Origin: Acidimicrobiales bacterium
GTDB lineage: Bacteria > Actinomycetota > Acidimicrobiia > Acidimicrobiales > Aldehydirespiratoraceae
Direction of reading: 5' to 3'
Assembly (NCBI GenBank): GCA_029263175.1
Contig: JAJCXZ010000084.1
Coordinates: forward strand, 1-64,000
DNA: 64,000 nucleotides
A program made the translations under genes and the position numbers. Positions 7,118-57,341 of the stretch are shown one piece after another (the stretch's first letter is position 1; each line of letters starts with the position of its first letter). The notes below the pieces were generated by a model, which did not search any database, had not been told where the DNA came from, and worked only from the letters and a program-made list of their open reading frames with translations.

Positions 7118-7147
7118 GGTGCGCCTGATGATGGCAGACTCAGGCCG

Positions 7148-8029
7148 ATGAAGGTTCACCTGGTCGACGGAACGTACGAGCTCTTTCGGTATCACTTCTC
7201 GCCGGCCAACAAGGAACCTCGACTCGGCGCCCAGCGCGGCGTGCTCAACACCGTGCTCGACCTGGTCGCTGATGGGGCAACTCACATCGGAATCGCCACC
7301 GACCACGTGATCGAGTCATGGCGCAACGACCTGTATGACGGCTACAAGGACGGGTCCGGCATCGACCCCGACATCTTCGCCCAGTTCCCCGAGGTCGAAG
7401 AGCTGCTCGACCTCGCCGGATTCGAGGTCTGGCCGCAGGTCACCCATGAGGCCGACGATGCGATGGCGGCCGGGGCGGCGATGGCCGTGGCCGACGATCG
7501 AGTCGAGCAGGTCATCATCTGCACCCCCGACAAAGATCTCGCCCAGTGCGTCACTCCGGATGGGCGGGTCGTGCAGCTCGACCGCCGCCGGGAGATCACC
7601 TACGACCGCGCCGGTGTCATCGAGAAGTTCGGTGTGCCCCCCGAGTCGATCCCCGACTACCTCGGCGTTGTCGGCGACACGGCCGATGGCTTCCCCGGCC
7701 TTCCCGGCTGGGGCGCGAAGTCCGCTGCTGCGGTATTGACCCGCTACGGCCACATCGATCAGATCCCGTTCGACGTCGCAGAATGGGACGTCAACGTTCG
7801 AGGCGCGGGCAAGCTTGCACTCGCATTGCGAGAAAACTTCGAGGACGCTCTGCTGTTTCGTCGCATTGCCACGGTCGACATCGATGCGCCAGTGAGCGCG
7901 TCGGTCGACGAGATGGAGTGGCTCGGCCCGCAACCGGGGTTCGACGAACGTTGCGCCGCAATCGGTGCCGAGCGCCAGGCGGCGCGCCTCCACAAGCTGT
8001 GGGACGAGAAGGTGGCCGCCGGTGGATAA
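7148..8029 (+). CDS. 5'-3' exonuclease (Pol I N-terminal / FEN-like)
   Basis: A 293-residue stand-alone flap/5'-3' nuclease. MKVHLVDGTYELFRYHF carries the first metal-binding Asp. EADDAMAAGAAM and IICTPDKDLAQCV carry the acidic cluster, and VVGDTADGFPGLPGWGAKSAAAVL is the helix-hairpin-helix region of the family. The ATG follows a possible -10 (CAGACT at 7135-7140) by 7 nt. It is divergent from the HrpB-VOC gene and its end overlaps the HD hydrolase start by 8 nt, so the two are probably co-expressed. Confidence 0.9.
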   Translation: MKVHLVDGTYELFRYHFSPANKEPRLGAQRGVLNTVLDLVADGATHIGIATDHVIESWRNDLYDGYKDGSGIDPDIFAQFPEVEELLDLAGFEVWPQVTHEADDAMAAGAAMAVADDRVEQVIICTPDKDLAQCVTPDGRVVQLDRRREITYDRAGVIEKFGVPPESIPDYLGVVGDTADGFPGLPGWGAKSAAAVLTRYGHIDQIPFDVAEWDVNVRGAGKLALALRENFEDALLFRRIATVDIDAPVSASVDEMEWLGPQPGFDERCAAIGAERQAARLHKLWDEKVAAGG

Positions 8030-8645
8030 GGAACGTGCACTCGACATCGCCGGGCAGTTCGGTGACGACCTCGCCGCCCGGTTGCGGTTCATCTACGAAC
8101 TCGACGAACTCAAGTCGGTTCTTCGCCAAACCCTGCTTGCCGACAAGAGCCGCCAGGAGAACTCCGCCGAGCACTCCTGGCACCTTGCCATGACCGCGAT
8201 GACCCTGGCCCCACTCGCCGATCCGCCGATCGACACCGAACGGGCGATCAAGATTCTGCTCGTGCACGACATCGTCGAGATCGACGCCGGCGACGTCTTC
8301 ATCTACGACACGAAGGCTCGGGTCGACAAGGAGGTCGAAGAGGTCGCGGCCGCCGACCGGATCTTCGGCTTGCTTCCCGAGCCACAGGCATCGGAGCTGC
8401 GGGCGCTGTGGGACGAATACGAAGCCCGCGAAACAGCAGAGGCTCGTTTCGCCTATTCGTGTGATCGGCTTCAACCGATGATGCTCAACCTCGCCATCGG
8501 GGGTGGGAGTTGGAAGCAACACGGCATCAAGGCGCATCAGGTCAAAGAGGTCAACAGCAGAATCGCGTGGGGCCTGCCGTCGGTCTGGGAAGCCGCAGAA
8601 GCGATTCTCGACGGCGCGATCGAAGACGGCGACCTGCCCGTCTGA
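8022..8645 (+). CDS. HD-domain metal-dependent phosphohydrolase (YfbR/HDDC2-like)
   Basis: A 207-residue HD-superfamily protein. Metal ligands are visible as His in ENSAEHSWHLA, the HD pair in LLVHDIVEIDAGDVF and a later Asp (YSCDRLQPMMLN). The pattern resembles HDDC2/YfbR-type 5'-deoxynucleotidases, so nucleotide hydrolysis is likely but the substrate is not established. The GTG at 8022 overlaps the exonuclease end. An upstream start at 7965 would add a 19-residue Arg-rich segment with no domain support. Confidence 0.85.
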   Translation: MDKERALDIAGQFGDDLAARLRFIYELDELKSVLRQTLLADKSRQENSAEHSWHLAMTAMTLAPLADPPIDTERAIKILLVHDIVEIDAGDVFIYDTKARVDKEVEEVAAADRIFGLLPEPQASELRALWDEYEARETAEARFAYSCDRLQPMMLNLAIGGGSWKQHGIKAHQVKEVNSRIAWGLPSVWEAAEAILDGAIEDGDLPV

Positions 8646-8670
8646 TCCTCGAGCGGGGTTGGGGACCGAC

Positions 8671-9762
8671 TCAGCCCTCGGCTGTCAACACTGCGTTGAT
8701 CGAGATCGGCGCCGCGGTCTCCAGCTGGTCGTAGCTGCAAGTGGCGGGGTCGCGGTCTGGACGCCAACGAACGAACCGGGTCGTGCCGCGGAATCGGCCG
8801 TTGAGTACCGCTTCGTACTTCACCTCAGCCACGAGGTCGCAACGCAACGGCACCCAGCTCGCGGTGTCGCGGCCGCCGCTCCATCGGTTCGGCGCTCCGG
8901 GCATCAGGCCGTCCTGGTGTGCTTCGGCGATCATCCAGTCACCCCACGGATGCTCATCGGGATCATCGGTGATGTAGGGGGCGAGGGTCTCCACCAGCTC
9001 GGCGCGAAGCGATGCTTTGAAGCTGGAGGCCACCCCCATGTGCTGGAGTCGCTCGGCGTCGTCATCCTCGGAACCGCTGTGGAGACCGACGAGCAAGGAG
9101 CCCACACCCTCGCCGTCCTTGTGCATGCGGTAGCCGGCGACCACGACGTCGGCAGTACGCGTGTGTTTCACCTTGTACTGCACCCGCTTGTTCGGCTGAT
9201 ACGTGCCATCGCGGGGCTTGGCGATCAGACCGTCGAGCCCAGCCCCTTCGAAGTCGATGTACCACTGGTGGGCGAGCTTGCGATCGAGCGTTGACGGCAC
9301 GAGATGGATGGGCGCGACGAAGTTGGCACCGATCGTCTCGAGGATCTGTCGTCGGTCACGAAACGGCTCATCGGTCAGATCGGTGTCGTGAACTGCCAGC
9401 ACATCGAAGGCCACGAACTCGGCCGGCGTTTCCTCCGCCAACTTGTTGATCCGTGACTCGGCGGGATGGATCCGCTGCTGGAGTGCGTCGAAACCGAGAT
9501 GTTCGCCGACGGTCACGATGATCTCCCCGTCGACCACGGCGCGGTCGGGTAGGCATTTCTTCAGGGGCTCGACCAGTTCGGGAAAGTACCGGGTGAGTGG
9601 CTTCTCGTTGCGGGAACCGAGGAAGATCTCGTCGCCGTCGCGAAAGACGATGCATCGAAAGCCGTCCCACTTCGGTTCGAATGCAAGGTCACCGATCTCC
9701 GGGATGCCGTCGATGGCCTTGGCGAGCATCGGTTTGACCGGGGGAGTGACCGGAAGATCCAT
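8671..9762 (-). CDS. ligC: ATP-dependent DNA ligase (LigC type)
   Basis: The 363-residue length is close to mycobacterial LigC. Motif I is EPKWDGFR with adenylated Lys31. Later motifs include VVDGEI, FVAFDVLA, GLDGLIAKPRDGTY and VQYKVKHTRTADVVVAGYR, followed by an OB-fold. It seals nicks using ATP and in actinobacteria acts as a non-essential repair ligase, often with NHEJ components, which are not visible here. TAGGCT lies 7 nt before the ATG, suggesting leaderless expression. Confidence 0.92.
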   Translation of the reverse strand: MDLPVTPPVKPMLAKAIDGIPEIGDLAFEPKWDGFRCIVFRDGDEIFLGSRNEKPLTRYFPELVEPLKKCLPDRAVVDGEIIVTVGEHLGFDALQQRIHPAESRINKLAEETPAEFVAFDVLAVHDTDLTDEPFRDRRQILETIGANFVAPIHLVPSTLDRKLAHQWYIDFEGAGLDGLIAKPRDGTYQPNKRVQYKVKHTRTADVVVAGYRMHKDGEGVGSLLVGLHSGSEDDDAERLQHMGVASSFKASLRAELVETLAPYITDDPDEHPWGDWMIAEAHQDGLMPGAPNRWSGGRDTASWVPLRCDLVAEVKYEAVLNGRFRGTTRFVRWRPDRDPATCSYDQLETAAPISINAVLTAEG

Positions 9763-43488: not shown

Positions 43489-45168
43489 ATGAACGAATTC
43501 ACCAACACACGAAAGAGCCAGGGTGCCGGGATGACCTCCGAGCAAGGAAAGCACTTCGGGCGCCGAGACTTCCTGCGCCGCGGCGCAGTTGTCACTGCCG
43601 CAGCGGGGGCCGGCACGGTCGCCGGAGGGACACTGCTGGCCACTTCGGCCAGTAGTACGCCGGGCGTCGGCATGGCACAGTTGCCCCTCAGCGAATCCAT
43701 CGACTACCAGACCATCCCGAGCGTTCGGCTGATGGCGACCGACGGGCATTTCTCGTTGCCCGGTCGCCGTCACCGCGACGAGGTCCCGGTCTTCGGCTTG
43801 GGATTTCGAGTTGTCGATGATCTCCGTACCGTTGACCTCGGCGGTGAGCTCAACAAGAACCCGGGTGAGCTCATCAGCAAGTACAAGGGTCTGGTCACCC
43901 ACACCGCTCCGACGACGATCGGCATCGAGGGCATCGAGATGGCGATCGTGCTGACCAACCTCGGCCTGGTTGTTCGCCCCGACCTTGATGACTCTCACAG
44001 TCTCCACTGGCACGGTTTCCGTAACGCCACCGCGGTGTTTGACGGTGTGCCGGAGACGAGCATCGCCGTGCCGAGCGGTCGAGATCTCCCGTACTTCTAC
44101 GATCCGAAGTTGGGATCTGAACCCGGACAGTCGAAGGGCTCAGCGGGTACCTACATGTACCACTGCCACTTCGAGGACACCGAGCACGTGCAAATGGGTA
44201 TGACCGGCATCATTCTGGTCGAACCATGGCAGGCGCATTTCTCCGCCGAACCCATCTCGAACGATCCCAACGATTGGCTCTGGTTGCCCGAGCGAGTCAA
44301 GGTTGCCTACAACAGCAACGCCGCCGGGGTCGACTCGAGCTTTGATCGGGAATTCGGTCTTCTGATCAACGAGATCGACACTGCTCCTCACGACAACCTC
44401 GAGAATGTGCAGGAATTCGTCTGGTCGGACTACAAGCCGAACTACTGGACGATCAACGGGCGCAGCTATCCCGACACGGTGATCCCGCAAATCTCGCCGA
44501 TAATGCAGGTCGACACCTACGACCCGGGAACCGGGCTCGCCAACGGAATCAACTTCAGCGAGACCGTTGACATGCCGGTCACGCCGATTTCGGCAGAAGA
44601 GATCGCCGAGGCGGAGATGTACTGGCAGCCGAACTCAGCGCTGATCCAGTGTCGTGCAGGTGATCGGGTGCTGTTGCGCATAGCCAGCCTCGGATTCGAG
44701 ATCCACAGTCTCGAAGCTCCAGGTCTCGACCTCGACGTGATTGCGCACGATGCCTCGCTGCTTGTCGGCAAGAACGGCACCAGCGACCTCTCCTACACCA
44801 CCCGACGCATCGAGGTGGGACCGGGTGAGGCTCGCGATGTGCTCTTCACCGCACCCGCCTACGACGATGGCGCTGCTGAGATCGACGTGCTGGCGCCGAG
44901 GACCACTGGCTACGCCCGCAAATTCAACCGCTATCTGATCAAGTCGCGCAACAACGATCGGAACCACAACGACGGTGGAGCGAGCCACGCTGATGGCCCG
45001 AGTTACGCCGATGTGAACACCGCCAACAACTACGGCGGCATGGTCACCGAAATCTGGGTGTATCCGACTTGGGACGACGCCGTTGGTCTTGGCCAAACGC
45101 CGTTGCCCGAACAAATCTCGATCAACGAAACCTTCCCCACTCTGGTTATGCCAGATGGACAGGTCTGA
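43489..45168 (+). CDS. Tat-exported multicopper oxidase (T1-bearing half)
   Basis: A 559-residue protein. The Tat motif RRDFLRR starts at Arg25-Arg26. Domain 1 has H170-x-x-H173-W-H175-G and H225-C226-H227-x5-H233-x4-M238, which supply a type 1 copper site and four of the eight His of a trinuclear cluster. The expected second ligand pair at the C-terminus is missing: the site is replaced by EIHSLEAPG (only His406). EARDVLFTAPAYDDG and a GGMVTEIWVYP end are as in Streptomyces-type relatives. The next gene carries the missing motifs. ATG 43489 has GGGAG upstream. Substrate unknown. Confidence 0.9.
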   Translation: MNEFTNTRKSQGAGMTSEQGKHFGRRDFLRRGAVVTAAAGAGTVAGGTLLATSASSTPGVGMAQLPLSESIDYQTIPSVRLMATDGHFSLPGRRHRDEVPVFGLGFRVVDDLRTVDLGGELNKNPGELISKYKGLVTHTAPTTIGIEGIEMAIVLTNLGLVVRPDLDDSHSLHWHGFRNATAVFDGVPETSIAVPSGRDLPYFYDPKLGSEPGQSKGSAGTYMYHCHFEDTEHVQMGMTGIILVEPWQAHFSAEPISNDPNDWLWLPERVKVAYNSNAAGVDSSFDREFGLLINEIDTAPHDNLENVQEFVWSDYKPNYWTINGRSYPDTVIPQISPIMQVDTYDPGTGLANGINFSETVDMPVTPISAEEIAEAEMYWQPNSALIQCRAGDRVLLRIASLGFEIHSLEAPGLDLDVIAHDASLLVGKNGTSDLSYTTRRIEVGPGEARDVLFTAPAYDDGAAEIDVLAPRTTGYARKFNRYLIKSRNNDRNHNDGGASHADGPSYADVNTANNYGGMVTEIWVYPTWDDAVGLGQTPLPEQISINETFPTLVMPDGQV

Positions 45169-45180
45169 GGGAGGCGAACG

Positions 45181-46545
45181 ATGAAACTCCGTTTGCGATC
45201 AAAGTTCACCGGCCTGCTGGCAGTTGCCGTCGCCGCCGGCGGTATGGCCACTGCTTTCAGCGGTAGCCAAACGGCCGGCGCCGCATCGGGCAACACCACG
45301 GTCATCTGTGCCGATGGTGCCTACGACGGTGTCGACAACTCGGTGACCTTCAACCTCGATGCTCGTCAGGGTTACATCGAGATGCCTGACGGCAACACGG
45401 TGTACACCTGGAGCTACTCAGAGGCGAGCAACCCGCTGTTCCAGTTCCCCGGACCGACACTGTGTGTTGATCAGGGCGAGACGGTTCGGGTCAACTTCCG
45501 CAACCCGGCCCCTGTCGGCACCCTTGCCGGCGGTGTCTCCGCTGACGCAACGTCGATCGTCTTCCCGGGTCAGGTCGGTCTCACCGCCTCTGGTGGTGCC
45601 GCCGGTCTATTGACCCAAGAAGTCGAGTCGGCGACCGATGTGGTCACCTACGAGTTCGTGGCCGGTGCGCCGGGCACCTACATGTATGAGTCGGGCACGG
45701 ATGCAGCGGTTCAGGTCCAGATGGGCATGTTCGGCGGACTCCTCGTCTATCCGAACGCGGGCCGCAATCAGGCCTACGCCGGTCACGAGTTCGATCCGGA
45801 GCACGAATACCTCCTTCTGTTCCACGAGATGGACCCCGCGCTCCACACCGCGGTCGAGCTCGCGGTGATGGCGGGTGGCGCCACTGACGCCACGGTGCTT
45901 GCGGACTACGACCCGTTGGCTCGTCACAACCGTTACTGGACCATCAACGGCCGGTCGTTCCCGGACACCATTGCCGAGAACAACACGCCGATCCTGCCCT
46001 TCCAGCCCTATAGCTCGCTGGTGCAGATCAATGCCGATGACCCTGACGACGGCTACGACCAACTCCCGTCGCTTGTCCGCTACGGCAATGGCGGTCTGGA
46101 CAACCACGCCTTCCACCCGCACGGCAACCACCTGTCGCTCATCGCTCAGGACGGTCGATTGCTCCCTGATGAGGTCGAGTCCTACACCAAGACGGTTGCT
46201 GCTGGTCAGACCTTCGACATCCTCGCCGAATGGAAGGACGTCGAAGCATGGCAGGGCACCGGTTCCCCGGTCGGCGTCAACCTCCCGGCCCTCAACAACC
46301 TCGCCTTCAAAGACGGTGTGACGTGGTACTCCGGTTCGCCGGACCTGGGCGTGGAGCAGCAGCTCCCGGCCGGCACTACCACCTTCACCGAATGCGGCGA
46401 GTACTACTTCCCCTGGCACAACCACGCACTCAACCGGACCCAGAACTTTGATGAGGGCTTCGGCGGCATGTTGACGCTCTGGCGGGTTGATCCACCAAAG
46501 GAATTCATCGACGGTGCCTGGACCAGTCCAGCGGCCTGCAAGTGA
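45181..46545 (+). CDS. Multicopper-oxidase-like protein (T1-less half)
   Basis: A 454-residue secreted cupredoxin-fold protein with a Sec signal peptide (LLAVAVAAGGMATAFSGSQTAGA). The C-terminal domain carries H309-x-x-H312-x-H314 and W-H413-N-H415. The type 1 Cys is replaced by Asn414 and a later His by Asn418. The N-terminal domain has lost its ligands; where the previous protein has YHCHFEDTEHVQMGM this one has YESGTDAAVQVQMGM. The His set is complementary to that of the 43489 product. GGAGG precedes the ATG, and the gap to the previous stop is only 12 nt. Confidence 0.88.
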   Translation: MKLRLRSKFTGLLAVAVAAGGMATAFSGSQTAGAASGNTTVICADGAYDGVDNSVTFNLDARQGYIEMPDGNTVYTWSYSEASNPLFQFPGPTLCVDQGETVRVNFRNPAPVGTLAGGVSADATSIVFPGQVGLTASGGAAGLLTQEVESATDVVTYEFVAGAPGTYMYESGTDAAVQVQMGMFGGLLVYPNAGRNQAYAGHEFDPEHEYLLLFHEMDPALHTAVELAVMAGGATDATVLADYDPLARHNRYWTINGRSFPDTIAENNTPILPFQPYSSLVQINADDPDDGYDQLPSLVRYGNGGLDNHAFHPHGNHLSLIAQDGRLLPDEVESYTKTVAAGQTFDILAEWKDVEAWQGTGSPVGVNLPALNNLAFKDGVTWYSGSPDLGVEQQLPAGTTTFTECGEYYFPWHNHALNRTQNFDEGFGGMLTLWRVDPPKEFIDGAWTSPAACK

Positions 46546-46574: not shown

Positions 46575-48443
46575 ATGAACTACAACCGCAACCGCTCACC
46601 CCGCCGCACACTCGGCCTACTGGCAACAGTGGCCCTGCTCGGCAGCACCCTCGCCCTCGCGGCGACCGTGTCTCCGGCGGCCGCCGCCACCGACGTTCAT
46701 CTGTGCGCCAAGGCTGGCACCGCGACGGTCGATGATCCAACTGTCGCCGGCAATCCCACGACGTCGTTCGACTTCTACGGATTCGTCACGGTGGCCAGCG
46801 AGGTCGAATGCATGACGTCGGCGGTGCCGACGTACGGCGACCCGACCCCGATTCGGCTCATCGACGGTGACCCGACCACGGTGCACCTTTACAACCAGAC
46901 GAGCTTCTCCATCAATTTCTCGGCCATCGGTCTCACCGGCGCACCGGATCTTGGTGGCGTGCCGGCCGGTGGGTCGGACACCTACACCTTCACGCCGGAT
47001 CACCCCGGCACCTACCTGTACGAATCGAACCTCGACCCCCGTCATTCCCTTGTGGGCCTGACCGGCGTCATGGTCGTCGACTCGGCGGTGGCGGGTACCG
47101 CTCACGGCACTGCGGCCTCGCAGTACGACAAGGAGCAGGTGGTGCTCTTGAGCGAGGTCGACCCGGCCTTCAACGCCACCTTCCCTGGTTCGAGCGATTT
47201 GTCGGACTACAAGCCCAGCCTCTACCTGATCAACGGCCACACCTTCACCGAGGCGGGCTCCAGTGGCCCCACTCCGCTGACGGCCAACGCCAACGAAGAG
47301 GTGTTGCTCCGCTACGTCAACACAGGCTCCACCAACAGCTCGATGACGGTGCTTGGCGTTCGCCAATCAATCGTGGCGTTCGATGGTGAAAACCAGCTCG
47401 GCGACGGCAGCAGCGAGGAAGATCCGCTCGATCACAGCCAGGTGTTCGTCACCGCCGGTCAGACCGCCGATGCCATCGTCACCGTTGCCGGTGATCCCGG
47501 CGACACGCTGTCGATCTACAACCGCAACCTGCGCACCAGTGCCACAGGCGACAACGGTGCACAGCTGATGCAGATCGTGGTCGGCACCGACATCATCCCG
47601 GCGATCAACGACATCTACTTCTCGGCGGCACCGTCGACTCGCACCTACCTTGGTGTCAGTGTCGGCGACGCCGATGTGGCCGTCTACAACGGCACTACGG
47701 TCGACATCCACTTCGACGGTGACCTCCACGGTCTCGACGACACCGGCAGCCAAGCCGACATCAACGCCGTGCACGTGGACCCGCTCACCGGCGACGTCTA
47801 CTTCTCGTTGCGCTATGACTACGCCAAGCCGACCGGCGGCACTGTAGGCGTTGAGTGGGCGGGCGTTCCTGACTCGATCCTCCAGGAGAACGACGTCTAC
47901 AAGTGGGACGGCACCGTGTTCTCCAAGTGGCTCGATGGTGATGCCATCGGCCTCGATGACAACCGGGGCCGCCACGACATCAATGCCCTGCACGTGTTCC
48001 CCACGACTGGCATCACGGCCTTCAGCACAAGCGGCAGCATCCAGACCAGCGATCACGTGCCCCTCTCCACGGGGAGCACCACCTGGATTGGCGCTCGCAA
48101 CGAGGATGTCCTTCGTTGGGTGCCCGTCTTCGGAGCCGCCAACCCAAGTGGTGCCGGCAGCTTCGAGTCTGTTGCCGACTTCAGTGACATCGGTATGGCA
48201 GCGGAGAACACCGACGGCCTCTACCTGTCCGGCTCCGACATTCGGATCTCGCTGACGAGCAACTTCGTCGAGGGCTTGGTGACGTTCGACCACGATGATC
48301 TGATCGGCTGTCTCGGTCACGCTCCCGCGGCCCCCGGCAGCATCCTGGAATCGTGTTCCGGCGCTCTGTCCCTCGAGCTCGATGCCGACGATCTCCACGC
48401 CGGCGGCAACGCCGGTCAGATCGACGCCTACAGCATCGGTTGA
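46575..48443 (+). CDS. Secreted cupredoxin-like protein with C-terminal repeat module
   Basis: A 622-residue protein with a Sec signal (LLATVALLGSTLALAATVSPAAA). The first about 330 residues follow the two-domain cupredoxin layout of its two upstream neighbours (PGTYLYESNLDPRHSLVGLTG, SLYLINGHTF), but no copper His set remains. From about 345 to the end are repeats of the type SVGDADVAVYNG ... DINAVHVDPLTGDVYFS that match modules in the giant protein and the subtilase. AAGGAA lies upstream of the ATG. It is probably a structural subunit. Confidence 0.75.
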   Translation: MNYNRNRSPRRTLGLLATVALLGSTLALAATVSPAAAATDVHLCAKAGTATVDDPTVAGNPTTSFDFYGFVTVASEVECMTSAVPTYGDPTPIRLIDGDPTTVHLYNQTSFSINFSAIGLTGAPDLGGVPAGGSDTYTFTPDHPGTYLYESNLDPRHSLVGLTGVMVVDSAVAGTAHGTAASQYDKEQVVLLSEVDPAFNATFPGSSDLSDYKPSLYLINGHTFTEAGSSGPTPLTANANEEVLLRYVNTGSTNSSMTVLGVRQSIVAFDGENQLGDGSSEEDPLDHSQVFVTAGQTADAIVTVAGDPGDTLSIYNRNLRTSATGDNGAQLMQIVVGTDIIPAINDIYFSAAPSTRTYLGVSVGDADVAVYNGTTVDIHFDGDLHGLDDTGSQADINAVHVDPLTGDVYFSLRYDYAKPTGGTVGVEWAGVPDSILQENDVYKWDGTVFSKWLDGDAIGLDDNRGRHDINALHVFPTTGITAFSTSGSIQTSDHVPLSTGSTTWIGARNEDVLRWVPVFGAANPSGAGSFESVADFSDIGMAAENTDGLYLSGSDIRISLTSNFVEGLVTFDHDDLIGCLGHAPAAPGSILESCSGALSLELDADDLHAGGNAGQIDAYSIG

Positions 48444-48449
48444 TTCTTC

Positions 48450-48956
48450 GTGACGGCCACCACTGCTCCCCCAGCCAGCAGCCCGCTTGGTCACCTTGAC
48501 CGACCGGCGTTGCGCTGGCTCGGCGCGCTCATCGCCATCGTTGCGGTGGCGCTGTCGAGTTGGGGCGTGGCCGGGCGTTTCACCGAACAGTCCGGCCCGG
48601 CAGCGGGGCTCGGCCCCATGGATTCGATCGATCAGGCCGGTTTCGCCGGTGAGACGGGCGTCTGGGTTGAACACGTCCGTCTTCTCGGCGGTGGCGGCCT
48701 CCTCGAGATTCGATACCGGATCCTCGAGGTCGAGCGCTCCGAGATCGTTCACAGCGTCGACTACCCACCGCGGATCTTCCACGAGGACGGATTCGAACTG
48801 CGTTGGCAACGCCACGAGCACGCTCACGTCCGTGAGAACCGTCTCGGGGCGACCTACAACGAGCAGCTCGTCAATCTCGGGTCGTATTTCGAGAAGGGTG
48901 ACGTGGTCACCGTCTACATCGGCGAGCAAGCGCTTGAAGGAGTTCCGATCCAGTGA
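48450..48956 (+). CDS. Single-pass membrane protein with His-rich segment
   Basis: A 168-residue protein. One TM helix (LGALIAIVAVALSSWGVAG) near the N-terminus leads to an extracytoplasmic domain with VWVEHVRLLGGGGLLEIRYRI, a cluster RWQRHEHAHVREN and a C-terminal EKGDVVTVYIGEQ. HEHAH is a plausible metal-binding site. Together with the adjacent CopC and CopCD genes it may be a copper-handling protein. Family not recognised with confidence. Confidence 0.6.
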   Translation: MTATTAPPASSPLGHLDRPALRWLGALIAIVAVALSSWGVAGRFTEQSGPAAGLGPMDSIDQAGFAGETGVWVEHVRLLGGGGLLEIRYRILEVERSEIVHSVDYPPRIFHEDGFELRWQRHEHAHVRENRLGATYNEQLVNLGSYFEKGDVVTVYIGEQALEGVPIQ

Positions 48957-49462
48957 GTCGACGATTCTTCGTCGCTGCGGTTCTCGTCGCCTCCGTCCTT
49001 TCCGGGGCGGAGGCGGTCGCCGCTCATGCCGACCCCTCCGTTGTGTCACCCGCGGCCTGCTCCACAGCTGATGCCGGCGACACCGTGATGATCGAATTCA
49101 CCGAAGAACTCCTCGCCGACGGGTCCCGACTGGAGCTCATTGCCGACGGCGTGTCCGTTGCGGTTGCGAGCATTGATCTCCGTGATCTCGACCACACGAC
49201 CATGGTGAGCACGATCCCGGCCGGGGTCGACGGTCCGGTCACCGTCCAGTGGGAAAGCGTCAGCGCGGTTGATGAGGACGTCGCCTCGGGTAGCTACGGG
49301 ATTGTGGTCGGCTCGGCCGCTCCCGCGGCCGACTGTGCACTGTCGGCTGCCGGGTCGACCGGCGGTGGGCTTCCTCTCGTCGCCATTGGCGGGCTGACGG
49401 TTGCAGTTGGTGCGGCGCTCGCTCTCGCCAACTCCCGTCGCCACGAACTCGTCGAGGTCTAG
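48953..49462 (+). CDS. CopC-domain copper-binding protein, membrane-anchored
   Basis: A 169-residue protein. The signal peptide ends in EAVAAHA, so the mature N-terminus (HADPSVVSPA) starts with His as in CopC. The beta-sandwich follows the CopC order (IEFTEELLADGSRLELIADGVSV). The C-terminus has a TM helix (GLPLVAIGGLTVAVGAALALA) and a short cytoplasmic tail. It overlaps the gene before it and is followed by a CopC-CopD fusion. Confidence 0.85.
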   Translation: MSRRFFVAAVLVASVLSGAEAVAAHADPSVVSPAACSTADAGDTVMIEFTEELLADGSRLELIADGVSVAVASIDLRDLDHTTMVSTIPAGVDGPVTVQWESVSAVDEDVASGSYGIVVGSAAPAADCALSAAGSTGGGLPLVAIGGLTVAVGAALALANSRRHELVEV

Positions 49463-49463
49463 C

Positions 49464-51308
49464 GTGTCCCGCTGCTCTCGACCCCTCCTGCTGGTTCTCG
49501 CCAGCTTCCTCACCGTTGTGGTGTGGGCGTCGCCGGCGTCGGCGCACGCCACCCTGGTCGGCGCGGACCCGGCCGACGGTTCCCTGCTCGACGATGCTCC
49601 CGAGACCGTTGCCTTGACCTTCAGCGAACCGGTGTCGATCGACGCCAGCACCGTCGACTTCGTCGATGCCGAAGGCAATCGGCTCGGCGCCACCATCAGC
49701 GGCCACGGCGCTAGTGAGTCGGTGCTGATCGTTTCCCTCGAAAACGCCCCCGACGGTCTCTACAGCTTGCGTTGGAGTGCGTTCAGCAGTTCCGACGGCC
49801 ACGTCACGCGAGGCATGCTGGTCTGGGGAATCGGCGCCGGTGCGGATCTGACGCATGCCGACTTCGCCGAACCCTCTGATCCGATCTCCCCGATCGAGGT
49901 GTTGCTGCGTTGGGCCATGCTGCTCTCGTTCGGAATCATGGCCGGCGCCGTGATGCTGGATCGCACCGTTGTCTCACCGCTCCGCTCTCGGTTCCCCAGC
50001 GCGCTGGACGATGCCTGGCACCAGGGTTCGGCGGCCATTCTCCATCGGGCAATGCTGATCGGGGCGTCGATCGCTACCGGCGCGAGCCTGGTGCTTGTTG
50101 CCTACCAACTGCTGGCGGCATGGACCACCGGCAGCCAGTCTCTCATTGATGCCGTCGACACCGCCCTGGTCTCGACCTCGTGGGGCCAGTGGGCGCTTCT
50201 CCGGGCTCTTGTGCTTGCCGCTCTCTTCGTTCTCGTCGCTCGCCGTGGGGTGAACGTCGGAGCCCTTGGACTCGGTCTTCTTGGCGTTGTGGCGCTCGCC
50301 CAAAGCGCCGGTGGTCACTCCGCGGGCACGGGGACCGCCGTCTTCTCGGTTCTGAACGACGTTGTTCACCTGATCACTTCGATGAGCTGGGTGGGCGCCG
50401 TGGTGCTTTTGGCCGTTATCGCTCGGTTGCCGGCGCACACGGGTCGCCAGATGCGGGCGGTCGCTCTCTCCGCGTTCAGCCCGGTGGCCTTCATGATGGT
50501 CGCCGCCGCGATCATCACCGGTCTCCTCGCCGTCGGCGACCAGGCCCGGTCCATCGACGCCGCCATCAGCACGCTGTACGGGCAGGCAATGCTCGGCAAG
50601 CTCGCCCTCATTGCGGGGATGCTCGGCGCTGCGCTCCTGATCCGTCGGCAGTACAGCGCCGAATCTGTCTCCAGCGTGGTCCGTGCCGAGGCCATCGCCG
50701 GTGCGCTCGCTGTCGGCCTGGTTGCCTTGATGACTGCGTCGACCCCGGCCAACGGCGTTGAGTGGCGGCCCGCGATCGCGGAGGGCACCCGTCAGCTCGC
50801 TGTCGTGAGAGACGACATCCAGATCGGTGTCACCGTGAGCCCCAATGCTCCCGGCCAGAACTTCGTGCTGGTCGACACCGCTACCGTTCGACGTCCTGCA
50901 CTTGCCCCGATCGATCGGGTGATCGCCCGGGTGCGTTCCACCGATGTGGATCTCGCAGGCACGACCTTCGAGGTCCCCGCCACCGACCGAGACGGCGAGT
51001 ACGAACTCGGCACCACGTCGTTCTCCGTCTCGGGCAACTACGACCTCGAGATCGTGGTTCGCCGCACGGGCCTGCCCGACAAGGTCGCACAGTTCGACTG
51101 GACCGTCGCCGATCCGTCGCCCCGCGCCGTGATCATCAGCGACCATCCCCTCGGCCCGTGGACGTCCGCGCTGGCAAGTGCGGCGGCGGCGGCGTTCGCG
51201 CTGCTGCTGGCGAGCCAGGCCGGTATCGCGATCCGGCGCGATCGTCGCACCCGTTCGCTCGAATCCTTTGCTCAGACGACTGAATCGCGCAACGAGGTTG
51301 ACTCGTGA
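49464..51308 (+). CDS. CopC-CopD fusion copper resistance/uptake protein
   Basis: A 614-residue protein. After the signal peptide the mature N-terminus AHATLVGADPADGS is a CopC domain (ETVALTFSEPVSIDAS; SSDGHVTRGM). Residues about 140-400 hold about eight hydrophobic helices of the CopD type (LLRWAMLLSFGIMAGAVML; GGHSAGTG; MSWVGAVVLLA). The C-terminal extracytoplasmic domain (about 430-590) is beta-rich and ends with another TM. It probably moves copper across the membrane. GTG 49464 lies 1 nt after the copC stop. Confidence 0.9.
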   Translation: MSRCSRPLLLVLASFLTVVVWASPASAHATLVGADPADGSLLDDAPETVALTFSEPVSIDASTVDFVDAEGNRLGATISGHGASESVLIVSLENAPDGLYSLRWSAFSSSDGHVTRGMLVWGIGAGADLTHADFAEPSDPISPIEVLLRWAMLLSFGIMAGAVMLDRTVVSPLRSRFPSALDDAWHQGSAAILHRAMLIGASIATGASLVLVAYQLLAAWTTGSQSLIDAVDTALVSTSWGQWALLRALVLAALFVLVARRGVNVGALGLGLLGVVALAQSAGGHSAGTGTAVFSVLNDVVHLITSMSWVGAVVLLAVIARLPAHTGRQMRAVALSAFSPVAFMMVAAAIITGLLAVGDQARSIDAAISTLYGQAMLGKLALIAGMLGAALLIRRQYSAESVSSVVRAEAIAGALAVGLVALMTASTPANGVEWRPAIAEGTRQLAVVRDDIQIGVTVSPNAPGQNFVLVDTATVRRPALAPIDRVIARVRSTDVDLAGTTFEVPATDRDGEYELGTTSFSVSGNYDLEIVVRRTGLPDKVAQFDWTVADPSPRAVIISDHPLGPWTSALASAAAAAFALLLASQAGIAIRRDRRTRSLESFAQTTESRNEVDS

Positions 51309-54175
51309 GGCGCTGCACCCTTGCCGCAGTCGTTGCGACCCTCATCGCCACCATGTGTGCGTCGGTGGGCCCGCTTGCTGCGCAGACGACCGAGTCCGAT
51401 GGGGTGACGTCCGGGAGCCCCGCAGTAGTCACTGTTACGTCGCCGACGACTTCCGTCTTCACCGCCGATGCCCGCCGGATGTTTGCCGCGAGCGGATCCG
51501 ACGACCTCCTGAGCGTCGTGGTGAAGTTGTCAGAGCAAATCGACCTGTCCGCCCTGCTCGCCGATTCAGAGGTCGTGAGCGCCGACGTCGTCGAAGCGCT
51601 TCAGGACCATGCGGCTCGTGACCAAGCATTGCTTCGACTTCTGGCTCCGTTGTGGGAACGCGGCGCCTCCGTCGAGTCCTTTACCCCGTTCTGGATCACC
51701 AACGGCTTCTCGATCACCGCCACCCCAGCCGTGATCGCCTCGATCTCGAACTTCGTCGACGTGGTCGAGATCGACATCGAGCACACCTACCTCTCGGCCG
51801 CCGTTCCACCAACCGGGCCGCCGACCGCCAACATCGACGCCGTCGGCGCTCCGGCCGCCTGGAGCCGCGGCTTCACCGGCGCAGGAACCGTCGTTGCCGT
51901 GCTCGACACGGGTGTCGACATGATTGGTATCCCGGGCGTATTCCCGAGCGAAGTCGCCGGCACCTATCGAGGTGGAACCAACAGCTGGTTCGACCCGTAC
52001 ACGGTCACGACCGAGCCCTACGACCTCGAAGGCCACGGCACGGCTGTCGCGAGCATCATCACCGGTGCTGATCAGAGCGGCTCAGCGGTGGGTGTCGCTC
52101 CGGGGGCTCAGTGGATCGCGGCCAAGATCTTCGACGACTCCGGCAGCGCGACAACCACCGCGATCCGATCGGCTCTCGAATGGGTGCTCGATCCTGATGG
52201 CGATCCGACGACCGATGATGGCGCCGATGTCGTCAACGCGTCCTGGACGGGTGCCGCTCCGGGCTGTGACAGCGAGTTCGCCCCCGACATTGCCGCCTTG
52301 CGAGCGGCGGGTGTCATACCGGTCTTTGCCGCCGGAAACCTCGGTCCGCTTCCGGGTAGCTCGCCGAGCCCGTCCAACCTGCCGGGCGTTCTGGCCGTCG
52401 GCGCCGTGCAAGCCGACGACACCATCGTGTCCGAGAGCAGTCGGGGTCCGACCGAATGTGGTGGCGCCACGCGCACGTACCCCCATCTCGTCGCGCCTGG
52501 TGATGGCATTACGGCCCAGACCGTTCAGGGACAGTTCGTGCCTCACACGGGTACCTCGTTCGCAGCCCCTCACGTCGCCGGAGCCGTCGCCCTCCTCGTC
52601 GAGGCCAACGGCGGGCGCGACGATGCAGCCATTGAGGCAGCCATCGTCGGCAGCACCATCGACCTCGGTGACCCCGGCGCCGATGACACCTTCGGTGCCG
52701 GTGTTCTCGACATCGGTGCCGCCCTCGACCTGCTCGTCGGTGTCGCCCCTACCGCCGGATCTGTCACCGGCTTGGTCTTCGAAGATCTCAACGGCAACGG
52801 AACCTACGACGATGGCGAGATCCCGACAGGCTCGGCGCAGCTGGCGTTGATGGACGCCGGTGACGACGCAACCTTCGGCACCGCTGATGACGTGATCTTG
52901 GCGGAGACCGTCACCGACCCCGACGGCACCTATGTCTTCAGCGGTGTGGCGGTCGGCGGCGCCCACGTGGTTGTGTCACCGACTTCTCTCCCCGGTTCGG
53001 CCCAGCTGACGACACCTGGCGTCCAGGACGTCACCGTGGTCGAAGGTGAAGCCACCACGGCGAACTTCGGCTGGCGCCCGCCGGACCCCGGCGCCTTGAC
53101 CGTCGACATCTACGACGATGCGAATGCGGATGCGATCCATCAGGATTCCGAACTCGCCATCGAGGGTGTGACCATACGAGTGACCTCCGCTGGGACGGAC
53201 GGACTCTGGGGTACCTCTGACGACGTCGGGCCGCTTGCGGCCACCAGCGATGCGACCGGTGCCGCCGTGGTTTCAGATCTTTCGCCGGGTCCTGCGCGGA
53301 TTGCAGTCGACACGGAGACCCTGCCGGCCGGGGGGTATGTGAGCAGTGTGTCCTCGATTGAGGTCATCGTGGTCTCCGCTGGAATCGTCAACATCGGTAT
53401 TGGTGTCCACACGCCAGAGTCGACCGAGCCGATCATCTTCGTTTCGTGGAAGCGGGCCGGCAGAACCAACGACTCGACGCTCGGGTTCCGCGATGAGGAC
53501 ATCCTTGCGTGGACTGGCGCTCGCTACGAAATGCTCTTCGATGGCTCCGACGTTGGTCTCGGCGGCGTCGATGTCGATGCGTTTCACGTGGTCGATGACT
53601 CAACCATTCTTCTCTCCGTCGACCGGGCAATCTCTCTCCCCGAGCTCGGCCAGATCGAAGACCACGACGTCCTCCAGTTCGACGCAACCGAGCTCGGAAC
53701 ATCCACGCGTGGCACATTCTCCATCTACCTGGACGGCAGCGACCTCGGTCTCGAAGGGCCCGGATCCGACATCGACGCGATCGCCATGGGCGACGGTGAG
53801 CTGCTCGTATCCGTCCGCGGCAACATCACGGTGGGTGGTATCGGCCTCGTACGCGATGAAGATCTTCTGCGTGTCGAACTCGAGGAAGTCGGCCCGCAGA
53901 GTATCGGCAGTATCTCGGTGTGGTTCGACGGATCCGGGAGTGGCCTCACCACCCGGTCCGGCGACATCGACGCTGCGGCGGTGCGCGGCACCGATGGTGA
54001 GCTGATGATCAGCACCTTGGGAGAAATCCGTGCCCCAGGGCTTGTGGCGACCGACACCGACGTCCTCGCCTGCACTGATCTCGAAGCCTGTATCTGGACC
54101 GTCCGATTCCCCCATTCGTCCTTCGGGCTGGGCTTGGACATCGACGGCATCGCACTTCCTGAAGGAGAGTCGTGA
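51305..54175 (+). CDS. Secreted S8 (subtilisin-like) serine peptidase with accessory domains
   Basis: A 956-residue protein. Signal peptide, then an inhibitor-like propeptide (about 50-155) and a subtilase domain with Asp201 (VLDTGVD), His244 (GHGTAVAS) and Ser418 (GTSFAAPHVAG). Two SdrD-like B domains follow (VTGLVFEDLNGNGTYDDGE and a related copy). Residues about 708-956 are the repeats shared with the giant protein and the 46575 product (DIDAIAMGDGELLVS, VRDEDLLRV). It could process the other exported operon products. It overlaps copCD by 4 nt. Confidence 0.9.
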   Translation: MRRCTLAAVVATLIATMCASVGPLAAQTTESDGVTSGSPAVVTVTSPTTSVFTADARRMFAASGSDDLLSVVVKLSEQIDLSALLADSEVVSADVVEALQDHAARDQALLRLLAPLWERGASVESFTPFWITNGFSITATPAVIASISNFVDVVEIDIEHTYLSAAVPPTGPPTANIDAVGAPAAWSRGFTGAGTVVAVLDTGVDMIGIPGVFPSEVAGTYRGGTNSWFDPYTVTTEPYDLEGHGTAVASIITGADQSGSAVGVAPGAQWIAAKIFDDSGSATTTAIRSALEWVLDPDGDPTTDDGADVVNASWTGAAPGCDSEFAPDIAALRAAGVIPVFAAGNLGPLPGSSPSPSNLPGVLAVGAVQADDTIVSESSRGPTECGGATRTYPHLVAPGDGITAQTVQGQFVPHTGTSFAAPHVAGAVALLVEANGGRDDAAIEAAIVGSTIDLGDPGADDTFGAGVLDIGAALDLLVGVAPTAGSVTGLVFEDLNGNGTYDDGEIPTGSAQLALMDAGDDATFGTADDVILAETVTDPDGTYVFSGVAVGGAHVVVSPTSLPGSAQLTTPGVQDVTVVEGEATTANFGWRPPDPGALTVDIYDDANADAIHQDSELAIEGVTIRVTSAGTDGLWGTSDDVGPLAATSDATGAAVVSDLSPGPARIAVDTETLPAGGYVSSVSSIEVIVVSAGIVNIGIGVHTPESTEPIIFVSWKRAGRTNDSTLGFRDEDILAWTGARYEMLFDGSDVGLGGVDVDAFHVVDDSTILLSVDRAISLPELGQIEDHDVLQFDATELGTSTRGTFSIYLDGSDLGLEGPGSDIDAIAMGDGELLVSVRGNITVGGIGLVRDEDLLRVELEEVGPQSIGSISVWFDGSGSGLTTRSGDIDAAAVRGTDGELMISTLGEIRAPGLVATDTDVLACTDLEACIWTVRFPHSSFGLGLDIDGIALPEGES

Positions 54176-56706
54176 GCAATCGAAACTGGATTTCGCGTGC
54201 CGCAATGATGGCTGCATCAAGCCTTCTGCTCGTGACGATGTTGAGCGATGCAGCTCTGGCCCTCGAAGAAACGAACGCGCCCGAACCCGAGATCACAACG
54301 GCCAGCACGATCCTTCCCGACGACGCTGTCGTGCACGAGATGGTGTTCCCGATCGATGGTGAGCACCGCTTCATCAACGACTGGCACTTCCCCCGCGACG
54401 GAGGTGCCCGCCTCCACAAGGGCACCGACGTGGTCGCCGATCGCCACACGCCACTCGTGGCGACCGTCGACGGCGTAATCGAGACCGTGCGCCACAGCAA
54501 CAGCGGCAACGCCGGCAACATGGTCGTCCTGTTGGGCGACGACGGCTGGCGCTACTACTACATCCACCTGAACAACGACAGCAAAGGCACCGACAACGGC
54601 CTCAACCTCTATGCCGAGGCCTTTGGTCCGGGTATAGGCGAGGGAGTTCGTGTCGAAGCGGGCGATCTGATCGGCTATGTCGGCGACTCGGGCAACGCCG
54701 AGGGCACCATTCCTCACCTTCACTTCGGTGTCAAGAACGCCTCCGGCATCTACGTCAACCCCTTCTGGTCACTCCGAGATGCTGACCTTCTCGGCTCGGC
54801 CCCATTCGACTACCTCTGCCGCGGGGGCGAGAACCCGCTGTGGGGGATCACGGCTCCAGACGACACGCCGGCAATCGATGACACGCCACCCGCCGATGGA
54901 TCGGCGACGACCACAACTGTCGCTCCCGACGAGGACGACGAGGGCGACGAAGACGAAGACGACTCCGAGGGCGATGACTCCGATGGTGATGACATCGACG
55001 AGGACGACGGCCTGCTTGCCGAGGACGTCGAGGACGAATCGGATGTCGACACTGCAGCGCTGCGACCGGTCCGCCCGGTGAACTCCGATCACTACAGCGG
55101 GGCACCGACTACTACCACGACCACTCTGCCCGCCGCTGATCTGACGCCGGTCACCCCGGCCGAGTCGGAGGAAGTCGTGGCAATCGTCGGCGGCGCGCTC
55201 GATGTGTCTGCCTTGGGTGACGCAGGGTTCCGCGGCTCGCTCGGCGATGTCGAGCTCGAAGAACTCGTCGATCTCGCCCGTACCGAAACTGGCACCGGCT
55301 TCTACGTCCTCGATCGCTTCGGTGACGTTCAGGAATTCGGCGATGCCGTCTACCACGGCTCACTCGACGACGCGGAAGCGGCGGTTGAAGCCGTGGCCCT
55401 CGAGGTGTACCTCGGTGGGGCCGGCTACTGGATCCTCGAGGCCAATGGCCAGATCCATGCCTTCGGGGCAGCTCCCGACCTCGGTTCCCTCGGCCAAGGG
55501 TGGCTCACTGCGCCGCTCGTCGACTTCTCCGCTTCGCCCACCATGGGCGGCTTCATTCTCGCGGCGTCCGACGGCACGGTCTTCGCCCTTGGCGACGCCC
55601 TCTACGCCGGCAGCGTGCTCGACCTTGACGGTGTCGGGGTCGTGACTCCGATCGGTGTTCAAACCACCGTCACCGGCGAGGGCTACTGGATCCTCACCGA
55701 GTCCGGCCAGGTCCTGACCTTCGGCGACGCAGCCTTCCAGGGCGCCGAACGCGGTGGTTCGGCCTGCCGCTGGGACGACACGATCGGTCTGGTGACCTTC
55801 CTCGACGGATCGGGCGTCTGGGTCGTTGCCGACGACCTCCAGGCCTGGGCGTTCGGCAGCGCTCGCGAGAGCGGGCCGCTCCGGGCCAGCGATCCTGTCG
55901 GTATCACCCATGACCTGCCGGTCGTTCTTCCTCCGAAGGAGGACGACGACATCGATGATGACGCGCCTGACGACGACGGTGGCGGTGGTGACGGCGGCGG
56001 CGATGACGGCGATACGCATGATCACGACGATGACGATGACGATTACGACGACGATTACGACGATGACGTCGATGATGACGACGACGATGACGACTACGAC
56101 GATGACGTCGATGATGATGCCGGCGACGATGATTCTGAGGACGGCGACGACGGCTCGGATGCTGACGATGACGTCGATGATGATGCTGGCGACGATGATT
56201 CTGAGGACGGCGAAGACGACGTCGATGATGACGCCGGCGACGATGATTCTGAGGACGGGGACGACGACGTCGATGATGATGCCGGCGACGATGATTCTGA
56301 GGGTGACGAAGACGGCCAGGACACCAACACCGACGACGACACTGGCGACGATGTTGACGGCGACGAGTCGGGTGACGGTGAGAGTGCCGAGGGCGATGAG
56401 GATTCCGCCAACGACACCGACGACGACACTGGCGACGACGTAGACGGCGACGATGCCGGCGGCGATGGCGATCCCGCCGAGACGGATGAGGACACTGTCA
56501 ACGACACCGACGGGGACACCGGCGACGACGTCGATGATGGCGAGACATCCACCGACGACAACCCGGTCGAGCAGGACGAGGAAACTGTCAACGACACCGA
56601 CGACGACACCGGTGACGACGTCGATGCCGACACGCCGGCTGATGACGGCGGCGATGCCGGCGACGCTCCCGTCGAGCTCGACGAAGACGCCGGAGGCGAT
56701 GTCTGA
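54172..56706 (+). CDS. Secreted M23-family peptidase-like protein with Asp-rich tail
   Basis: An 844-residue protein. A signal peptide (about 1-30) precedes an M23/LytM domain with His82 and Asp86 (HKGTDV) and His182/His184 (HLHFG). A Thr/acidic linker follows, then four or five repeats of GYW..xDG.v..FGDA..xGS type (about 340-580), known from other actinobacterial surface proteins. Residues about 590-844 are a tail of Asp, Glu, Gly and Ala with a 16-residue repeat. It may act on peptidoglycan or anchor the complex. The start overlaps the previous stop. Confidence 0.85.
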   Translation: MSNRNWISRAAMMAASSLLLVTMLSDAALALEETNAPEPEITTASTILPDDAVVHEMVFPIDGEHRFINDWHFPRDGGARLHKGTDVVADRHTPLVATVDGVIETVRHSNSGNAGNMVVLLGDDGWRYYYIHLNNDSKGTDNGLNLYAEAFGPGIGEGVRVEAGDLIGYVGDSGNAEGTIPHLHFGVKNASGIYVNPFWSLRDADLLGSAPFDYLCRGGENPLWGITAPDDTPAIDDTPPADGSATTTTVAPDEDDEGDEDEDDSEGDDSDGDDIDEDDGLLAEDVEDESDVDTAALRPVRPVNSDHYSGAPTTTTTTLPAADLTPVTPAESEEVVAIVGGALDVSALGDAGFRGSLGDVELEELVDLARTETGTGFYVLDRFGDVQEFGDAVYHGSLDDAEAAVEAVALEVYLGGAGYWILEANGQIHAFGAAPDLGSLGQGWLTAPLVDFSASPTMGGFILAASDGTVFALGDALYAGSVLDLDGVGVVTPIGVQTTVTGEGYWILTESGQVLTFGDAAFQGAERGGSACRWDDTIGLVTFLDGSGVWVVADDLQAWAFGSARESGPLRASDPVGITHDLPVVLPPKEDDDIDDDAPDDDGGGGDGGGDDGDTHDHDDDDDDYDDDYDDDVDDDDDDDDYDDDVDDDAGDDDSEDGDDGSDADDDVDDDAGDDDSEDGEDDVDDDAGDDDSEDGDDDVDDDAGDDDSEGDEDGQDTNTDDDTGDDVDGDESGDGESAEGDEDSANDTDDDTGDDVDGDDAGGDGDPAETDEDTVNDTDGDTGDDVDDGETSTDDNPVEQDEETVNDTDDDTGDDVDADTPADDGGDAGDAPVELDEDAGGDV
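56104..56313 (+). repeat. Acidic tandem repeat (48-bp unit)
   Basis: Blocks starting with GACGTCGATGATGA are at 56104, 56170, 56218 and 56266. The last three are spaced by exactly 48 bp (16 residues, about DVDDDAGDDDSEDG) and the first is followed by an 18-bp longer unit. They form the Asp-rich tail of the M23 protein. Confidence 0.9.
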
Positions 56707-57341
56707 TGCGTTCGCTCCGCATAGTCCTGGTCGCGGTGGCGCTCCTCGTGGTCGTCGCATCGCCGGCTGGGGCCCAGGACCCAGCACCCGCACAGGTGGA
56801 TGTCAGCCCGGGTGGCGTGCTGCAAGACGGAGACATTCTCACCGTCACCGGCAGCGGATTCGTCCCGGCCGACACCGTCTACCTCCTGTTGTGCAACGAC
56901 GATGAACGGCTCGGAGATTCGATCGCCCGATGCAGTCTCGTCGGTGCCGGATCCGCCGGCTACGTGGTCGACGCCGGCGGTGGCCTGCTCGCCGATGACG
57001 TTGTCGTGATCGTCGGTCAGGTCGGTGCCAGCGAGATGGCCACGTGCCCGCCCTCGGCCGCTCAGGCTGTCCGCGGTATCGGCTGCAGCATCCAGGTGGC
57101 TTCGGGCGATCTCGCAGAAGTCGCCGGCGCACAGGTCGTGTATGACGGTCAACCCCCGGCTGCACCCGCCGAACTCGCGTTCACCGGCCTGCGCGATGCC
57201 CCACTCATCCCGGTGGCCGGCATGCTGGTCGTCGGCGGAATCACGCTCGTTCTCGCCAGCGCGATGCTGGTTCGTCGCCGCCACGCTTGTGATTCCACGC
57301 CCTGGATCGGGGTTGACGCTCAGTCGGCCCAAAACGTCTGA
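56706..57341 (+). CDS. Surface protein with LAFTG sortase signal
   Basis: A 211-residue protein. Signal peptide (LVAVALLVVVASPAGA), a beta-rich domain with VSPGGVLQDGDILTVTGSGF (typical of small actinobacterial surface domains), then the sorting signal LAFTG at about 174-178, a hydrophobic helix (LIPVAGMLVVGGITLVLAS) and RRR. LAxTG is the pattern for class E sortases. It is the last gene of the operon and may be the covalent wall anchor of the complex. It overlaps the previous stop by 1 nt. Confidence 0.85.
   Translation: MRSLRIVLVAVALLVVVASPAGAQDPAPAQVDVSPGGVLQDGDILTVTGSGFVPADTVYLLLCNDDERLGDSIARCSLVGAGSAGYVVDAGGGLLADDVVVIVGQVGASEMATCPPSAAQAVRGIGCSIQVASGDLAEVAGAQVVYDGQPPAAPAELAFTGLRDAPLIPVAGMLVVGGITLVLASAMLVRRRHACDSTPWIGVDAQSAQNV

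Follow-up and report, generated by a model that had tools for sequence, protein, structure and literature searches.

Two-domain multicopper oxidases (2dMCOs) are homotrimers in which each trinuclear copper cluster (TNC) is coordinated by two protomers; in the type B enzymes, the type 1 (T1) copper site is located in the C-terminal domain (PMC13151041). The six-domain oxidases, namely ceruloplasmin, hephaestin and Bacillus MnxG, consist of six cupredoxin domains in a single polypeptide, with T1 sites in the even-numbered domains, and keep one TNC of three possible; they are thought to have arisen by triplication of two-domain proteins and loss of two out of three active sites (PMC3600357). MnxG is the sole oxidase of the Mnx complex (MnxEFG), which has been described as the only characterised multicopper oxidase that requires accessory proteins, and the other two components, MnxE and MnxF, resemble no characterised protein as reported (PMC5622069).

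The window, a 64,000-nucleotide stretch of DNA from an Acidimicrobiales bacterium that was analysed here, contains three consecutive genes for two-domain cupredoxin proteins, denoted subunits A, B and C, which follow the gene of a giant protein (Table 1). The genes for the giant protein, A, B, C, the CopC-like protein and the CopC-CopD fusion are all on the plus strand, with small gaps or overlaps, and the Pfam domain Cu-oxidase_3 is found above its cut-off in A, B and C. For subunit C, an alternative start is possible at a GTG at 46542. The described enzymes closest to these proteins in both sequence and fold are the type C 2dMCOs (3g5w, 2zwn, 3gdc), which also have two cupredoxin domains per chain and an N-terminal T1 site, and in which the TNC is expected between domain 1 and domain 2 of the neighbouring subunit. 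A type C enzyme, however, is one gene product with three T1 sites and three TNCs, whereas A, B and C are three gene products with ligands for one T1 site and one TNC among them, so that every chain is incomplete by itself. On balance, we are inclined to see in them a widespread, obligate heterotrimeric multicopper oxidase family of Actinobacteria, Chloroflexi and Firmicutes, in which the type C homotrimer would have turned into a pseudo-symmetric ring of three gene products that has just one T1 site and one intersubunit TNC.

Table 1. Genes and copper-ligand motifs of the A-B-C locus (positions in the window)
Feature	Coordinates	Strand	Remarks
Giant surface-type protein, 2115 aa	37122..43469	+	Pfam: SdrD_B, carboxypeptidase-regulatory-like; weak NosD/beta-helix
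Subunit A, two cupredoxin domains, Tat-type leader	43489..45168	+	ATG 43489, 559 aa
A motif H170-x-x-H173-x-H175 (T1 His, two TNC His)	43996..44013	+	invariant 82/82
A motif H225-C226-H227-x5-H233-x4-M238	44161..44202	+	invariant 82/82
Subunit B, two cupredoxin domains, Sec-type leader, 454 aa	45181..46545	+	
B motif H309-x-x-H312-x-H314	46105..46122	+	H312 and H314, TNC His; H309, lost T1 position
B motif H413-N414-H415	46417..46425	+	two TNC His around the replaced T1 Cys
Subunit C, ligand-free, two cupredoxin domains and a C-terminal extension	46575..48443	+	
Conserved small protein, 168 aa	48450..48956	+	often right behind C; relatives in 33 loci, mostly in that position
CopC-like protein	48953..49462	+	Pfam CopC E 3e-4, slightly below its cut-off
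CopC-CopD fusion, copper uptake/resistance type	49401..51308	+	Pfam CopC E 5e-17, CopD E 1e-6

Domain 1 of A contains a complete T1 site (H170, C226, H233 and M238) and four TNC histidines (H173, H175, H225 and H227), and reading the sequence of its second domain revealed neither an HxH motif nor any copper ligands. In B, the four TNC histidines (H312, H314, H413 and H415) are in domain 2, together with H309, and the T1 cysteine is absent, with an asparagine in its place; no copper ligands were found in the sequence of domain 1. These residues and their coordinates agree with those assigned to A and B in an earlier note on this DNA, which also counted eight TNC histidines, four from A and four from B; exactly these turned out to be invariant among the relatives (82/82 for A and 79/79 for B). 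Subunit C of the window has no HxxHxH, HCH or HxH motif and no copper ligands, and its relatives show no conserved His or Cys within the two cupredoxin domains; C is a third paralogue devoid of copper ligands, which the earlier note had not pointed out. A T1 site plus eight TNC histidines is complete only for A and B combined, with A contributing the T1 site and four histidines, B four and C none.

A scan of 84,980 species yielded 288 relatives of A, the best 80 of which were retrieved; they belong to Actinobacteria, Chloroflexi and Firmicutes, the last with Moorella and Thermincola, and, together with the window and after removal of duplicates, the set comprises 82 A genes. All eight ligands of A are invariant in these 82 genes, a conservation that is partly built in because the relatives were retrieved with two peptide patterns that contain ligands. 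Nevertheless, 50 of the 82 match just one of the two patterns, yet keep the other motif. The A motifs are also carried by three loci found by profile search (L109, L110 and L111), one of which has a Leu two residues before the axial T1 Met, with the ligands intact. Two acidic residues of A are conserved as well, E229 in 82/82 genes and D185 in 26/26 sequences of a joint triad alignment, and we take these to occupy the places of the acidic residues that serve O2 reduction in known oxidases. The axial Met of the T1 site suggests a middling redox potential.

The A pattern search placed no selection on subunit B, whose four TNC histidines are invariant in 79 of 79 sequences; one B is broken by a frameshift. 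They are also intact in L110 and L111, the two intact copies among the profile-found loci; in the third, B is cut by the contig end. Position 309, which corresponds to the T1 His, is His in 32 and Tyr in 40 of the 79, and position 414, that of the T1 Cys, is Ser in 59, Asn in 19 and Ala in one, and never Cys. With the TNC histidines invariant while the T1 His drifts and the Cys never occurs, B appears to retain exactly what a T1/TNC half on a partner needs. Of 75-79 relatives, 73-75 share four cysteines of B (C43, C95, C405 and C453), which likely form disulfides.

B directly adjoins A on the same strand in all 79 loci with room among the 82 A genes, and no A without B was found where the contig leaves room; C is present in 72 of the 72 loci with room. 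The three genes are separate in every locus, and no fused A/B/C gene was found. In the family of the window, A was detected by BLAST in five further genomes at ~57-61% identity, flanked, as far as the contig reaches, by B and C downstream and the giant protein upstream, and two more genomes of the order have A at ~35-45% identity. Searches with A and with B across 397 genomes of the order recovered the identical three genomes. Co-occurrence across genomes and ligand conservation, by which the earlier note had proposed to check its idea, both speak for it, and neither of the two outcomes that the note named as refuting was encountered. Screening 396 genomes of the phylum with a profile added three more loci, arranged as A-B-C or, at a contig end, as A-B. 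This adjacency and co-inheritance of A, B and C is a sign of functional linkage, not of physical contact. One genome (G625) carries two separate A-B-C triads (L110 and L111).

The profiles of A and B align with each other over both domains, as do those of B and C. In the phylogenetic tree, A, B and C form separate clades (support 1.0, 0.98 and 0.95, respectively), each of which spans phyla, and their distances are correlated, with r(A,B)=0.92; most likely, therefore, the division into A, B and C happened once, before the spread of the family. When 26 triads are aligned jointly, the domain-1 ligands of A are found in 26/26 A sequences and are essentially absent from B and C, and the domain-2 TNC histidines of B are found in 26/26 B sequences and are essentially absent from A and C, a complementarity that, as judged from the alignment, is far from chance. 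Among solved structures, A is closest to the two-domain oxidases 3g5w and 2zwn, whose T1 motif likewise lies in domain 1. In structure comparisons of the models, A matches two-domain copper enzymes with Z 26-27, B of the window matches 3g5w, 2zwn and 3gdc over both domains with Z of ~28, and C of a Firmicutes locus (L101) matches 3g5w and 2zwn with Z 29.1. Thus, each of the three subunits is predicted to adopt the two-domain oxidase fold.

Homology and ligand conservation constitute the main argument for a single A/B site, and they suggest that A and B very probably share a trinuclear cluster. The earlier note had proposed a hetero-oligomer of these two gene products, with the active site only at their interface. 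The shared site is backed by complementarity, invariance, adjacency and co-distribution, whereas the constant presence of a third subunit makes a three-subunit ring more likely than a complex of only two proteins; the interface location is also supported, although an interface TNC is in itself not new, given the homotrimeric two-domain oxidases (PMC13151041). If the equal subunits of such a homotrimer are swapped for A, B and C, one complete site results, formed by domain 1 of A with domain 2 of B, along with two empty ones; the distribution of the ligands thus favours a heterotrimer over a homotrimer. A full A-B-C ring, that is, an obligate 1:1:1 heterotrimer of six cupredoxin domains with one site, seems to us probable, and its stoichiometry, ring order, copper loading and oxidase activity are what we infer from the ligands, their conservation, the co-occurrence of the genes, and the paralogy and fold of the subunits, which the analysis shows.

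In the proposed mechanism, a type C two-domain multicopper oxidase subunit would have diverged into three copies, A, B and C. These would assemble 1:1:1, in the order B-A-C, into a six-domain cupredoxin ring, and of its three ancestral active sites, two would have been lost to decay. The surviving T1 copper would be bound in domain 1 of A by H170, C226, H233 and M238, and the TNC would lie between domain 1 of A (H173, H175, H225 and H227) and domain 2 of B (H312, H314, H413 and H415). Electrons from an outside substrate would enter at the T1 copper and pass along Cys226 to the flanking His225 and His227, O2 would be reduced to water at the cluster shared by A and B, and C would close the ring. 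The enzyme would be exported, with A using its Tat-type leader, and its probable place is at the co-encoded giant surface protein; it is likely to oxidise metals or phenols, either as an exported or as a surface enzyme.

The place of C in this scheme can be questioned. The copper ligands are only on A and B, C is the least conserved subunit and frequently comes with its own long extension, and in one locus (L019 of genome G031) a two-gene split pair occurs with no third cupredoxin gene found nearby, all of which would agree with A and B sharing the TNC within an A3B3 or A2B2 complex and C remaining outside the ring as an accessory, scaffold or copper-delivery protein. However, C is found in every locus with room for it and has the two-domain subunit fold, and a six-domain ring requires three two-domain subunits, so we consider this arrangement unlikely. 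Even less is to be expected of a scenario in which A and B never meet, A being a T1 electron-transfer or copper-binding protein and B a binder of copper through a His-rich half site, without O2 reduction. Each chain alone is indeed predicted to fold as a complete two-domain unit, but half a site by itself would leave unexplained the cross-phylum pattern, in which A keeps the T1 site with four TNC histidines and B keeps the complementary four, in 79/79 cases and in strict adjacency.

The copper nitrite reductases (NirK) share with the A-B pair the fold, the T1 site in domain 1 and, if the cluster is as proposed, a copper site at the interface, and the pair could accordingly be imagined as nitrite reductase-like, with a single type 2 copper at that interface. 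In nitrite reductases, a single His flanks the T1 Cys, domain 2 supplies one catalytic His, and the interface holds only type 2 copper; A and B do not follow this pattern, with the invariant HCH and HxH of A and the HxH found twice in B adding up to the full eight-His trinuclear set, which makes a nitrite reductase highly improbable. We give hardly any credence to a decayed, functionless oxidase operon in this lineage, which the two sites without ligands might bring to mind, in view of the conservation of ligands, reading frames and gene order in three phyla at identities down to ~35%.

Structure models of joined subunits bear on the order within the proposed A-B-C ring. In the window, A and B are in frame across a TGA, and the read-through chain was folded as one (pLDDT 75.6, pTM 0.77). 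In the order A-then-B, this model does not superpose on ceruloplasmin or Mnx (TM 0.24-0.27, rmsd 16-24 A), so that the contact between A domain 2 and B domain 1 seen in a six-domain chain seems not to be predicted; the sequential aligner used is blind to the order B-then-A, the one that makes the cluster, with which the result agrees only indirectly. The in-frame A-B-C read-through of L101 gave a model with a pTM of 0.47, which weakly matches ceruloplasmin in gene order (TM 0.45; 0.44-0.47 in the comparison with six-domain oxidases). At face value, this match would speak against the proposed ring order because, in a ring with the gene order A-B-C, domain 1 of A would not adjoin domain 2 of B; given the low pTM and the short linkers, of ~10 residues, we place little weight on this predicted arrangement. 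Neither ceruloplasmin nor MnxG is among the 50 best VIA matches of the window A-B model or the L101 model. In a covariation analysis of 77 triads (effective number ~35), pairs that join domain 1 of A to domain 2 of B are enriched up to 4.2-fold, an enrichment that is gone once the main lineage components are removed to correct for relatedness.

With regard to the established classes, a T1 site in the N-terminal domain only, as in type C, is found in A, with B and C lacking a T1 site, and no subunit carries both half-TNC sets: A is without the domain-2 set, B without the domain-1 set and C without either. Because of this outcome of the per-subunit ligand comparison, we file A/B/C as a multicopper oxidase variant and not as a type C 2dMCO proper. 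Cupredoxin-fold domains, as in multicopper oxidases generally, are present, and the T1 site and eight TNC histidines do not occur in one chain or a repeated one. The proposed A-B-C plan shares six domains and a single TNC with ceruloplasmin, hephaestin and MnxG, but consists of three polypeptides instead of one and has the T1 site in an odd, N-terminal domain. Similarly to Bacillus Mnx, it would depend on co-encoded partners, although in Mnx only MnxG is an oxidase.

In the open-access literature searched, we found no multicopper oxidase that is a heteromer of complementary paralogues, and the distribution of the TNC halves between different, half-dead paralogues appears to be new. If the proposed ring is correct, it went through the same three-to-one reduction of sites as ceruloplasmin and MnxG without fusion and with the T1 site on the other side of the interface than in those enzymes. 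The subunits would then have specialised on separate genes, opening site loss without fusion to direct study, and activity should require two different proteins, providing a clean test system for electron transfer across an interface and for cluster assembly. This also carries a warning for annotation: labelled one by one as multicopper oxidases, genes of this kind would seem inactive when expressed in isolation.

The conserved unit consists of the giant protein, A, B and C. A relative of the giant protein is encoded directly 5' of A in ~65 of the retrieved loci, and the giant protein has domains of the SdrD_B, carboxypeptidase-regulatory-like, TIG and beta-helix types; in Firmicutes, this unit stands alone, and the other neighbours are not common to it. 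CopC-CopD relatives are found in 39 loci, mostly downstream, and the fusion protein of the window is likely to supply copper; histidine kinases are encoded nearby in many loci. The 168-aa small protein behind C has no Pfam match. The leader of A is of the RR (twin-arginine) type in most Actinobacteria and Chloroflexi. In four Firmicutes loci (L088, L094, L101 and L102), A, B and C are leaderless, as is the giant protein in three of the four; absent leaders are as expected of a spore-coat location, so these could possibly be spore-coat proteins.

Several further features of these loci deserve mention. A long C-terminal extension is borne by B in 14 loci and by C in 55, and never by both (compare, e.g., L040 and L044 with L042 and L047); sequence comparison detected no homology between the B and C extensions, which perhaps represent one anchoring part carried by either subunit. 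Downstream of the CopC-CopD fusion, the window encodes a subtilase with C-terminal domains of SdrD_B-like and of giant-protein-like type (51305-54175) and then an M23 peptidase protein (54172-56706), which belong to the same cluster, are retained in near relatives and might possibly process the giant protein. These are followed by a small protein (56706-57341) with a weak, below cut-off match to the neocarzinostatin family (E 1.4e-4). The pair in L019 (G031:C127) is a second, different split. Its first protein (5994-7775) has N-terminal membrane segments, an empty first cupredoxin domain, and HxxHxH and HCH motifs in the last domain, where the T1 His and Met are absent; in the second (7682-8929), domain 1 contains a T1 site and half a TNC, whereas domain 2 is empty.
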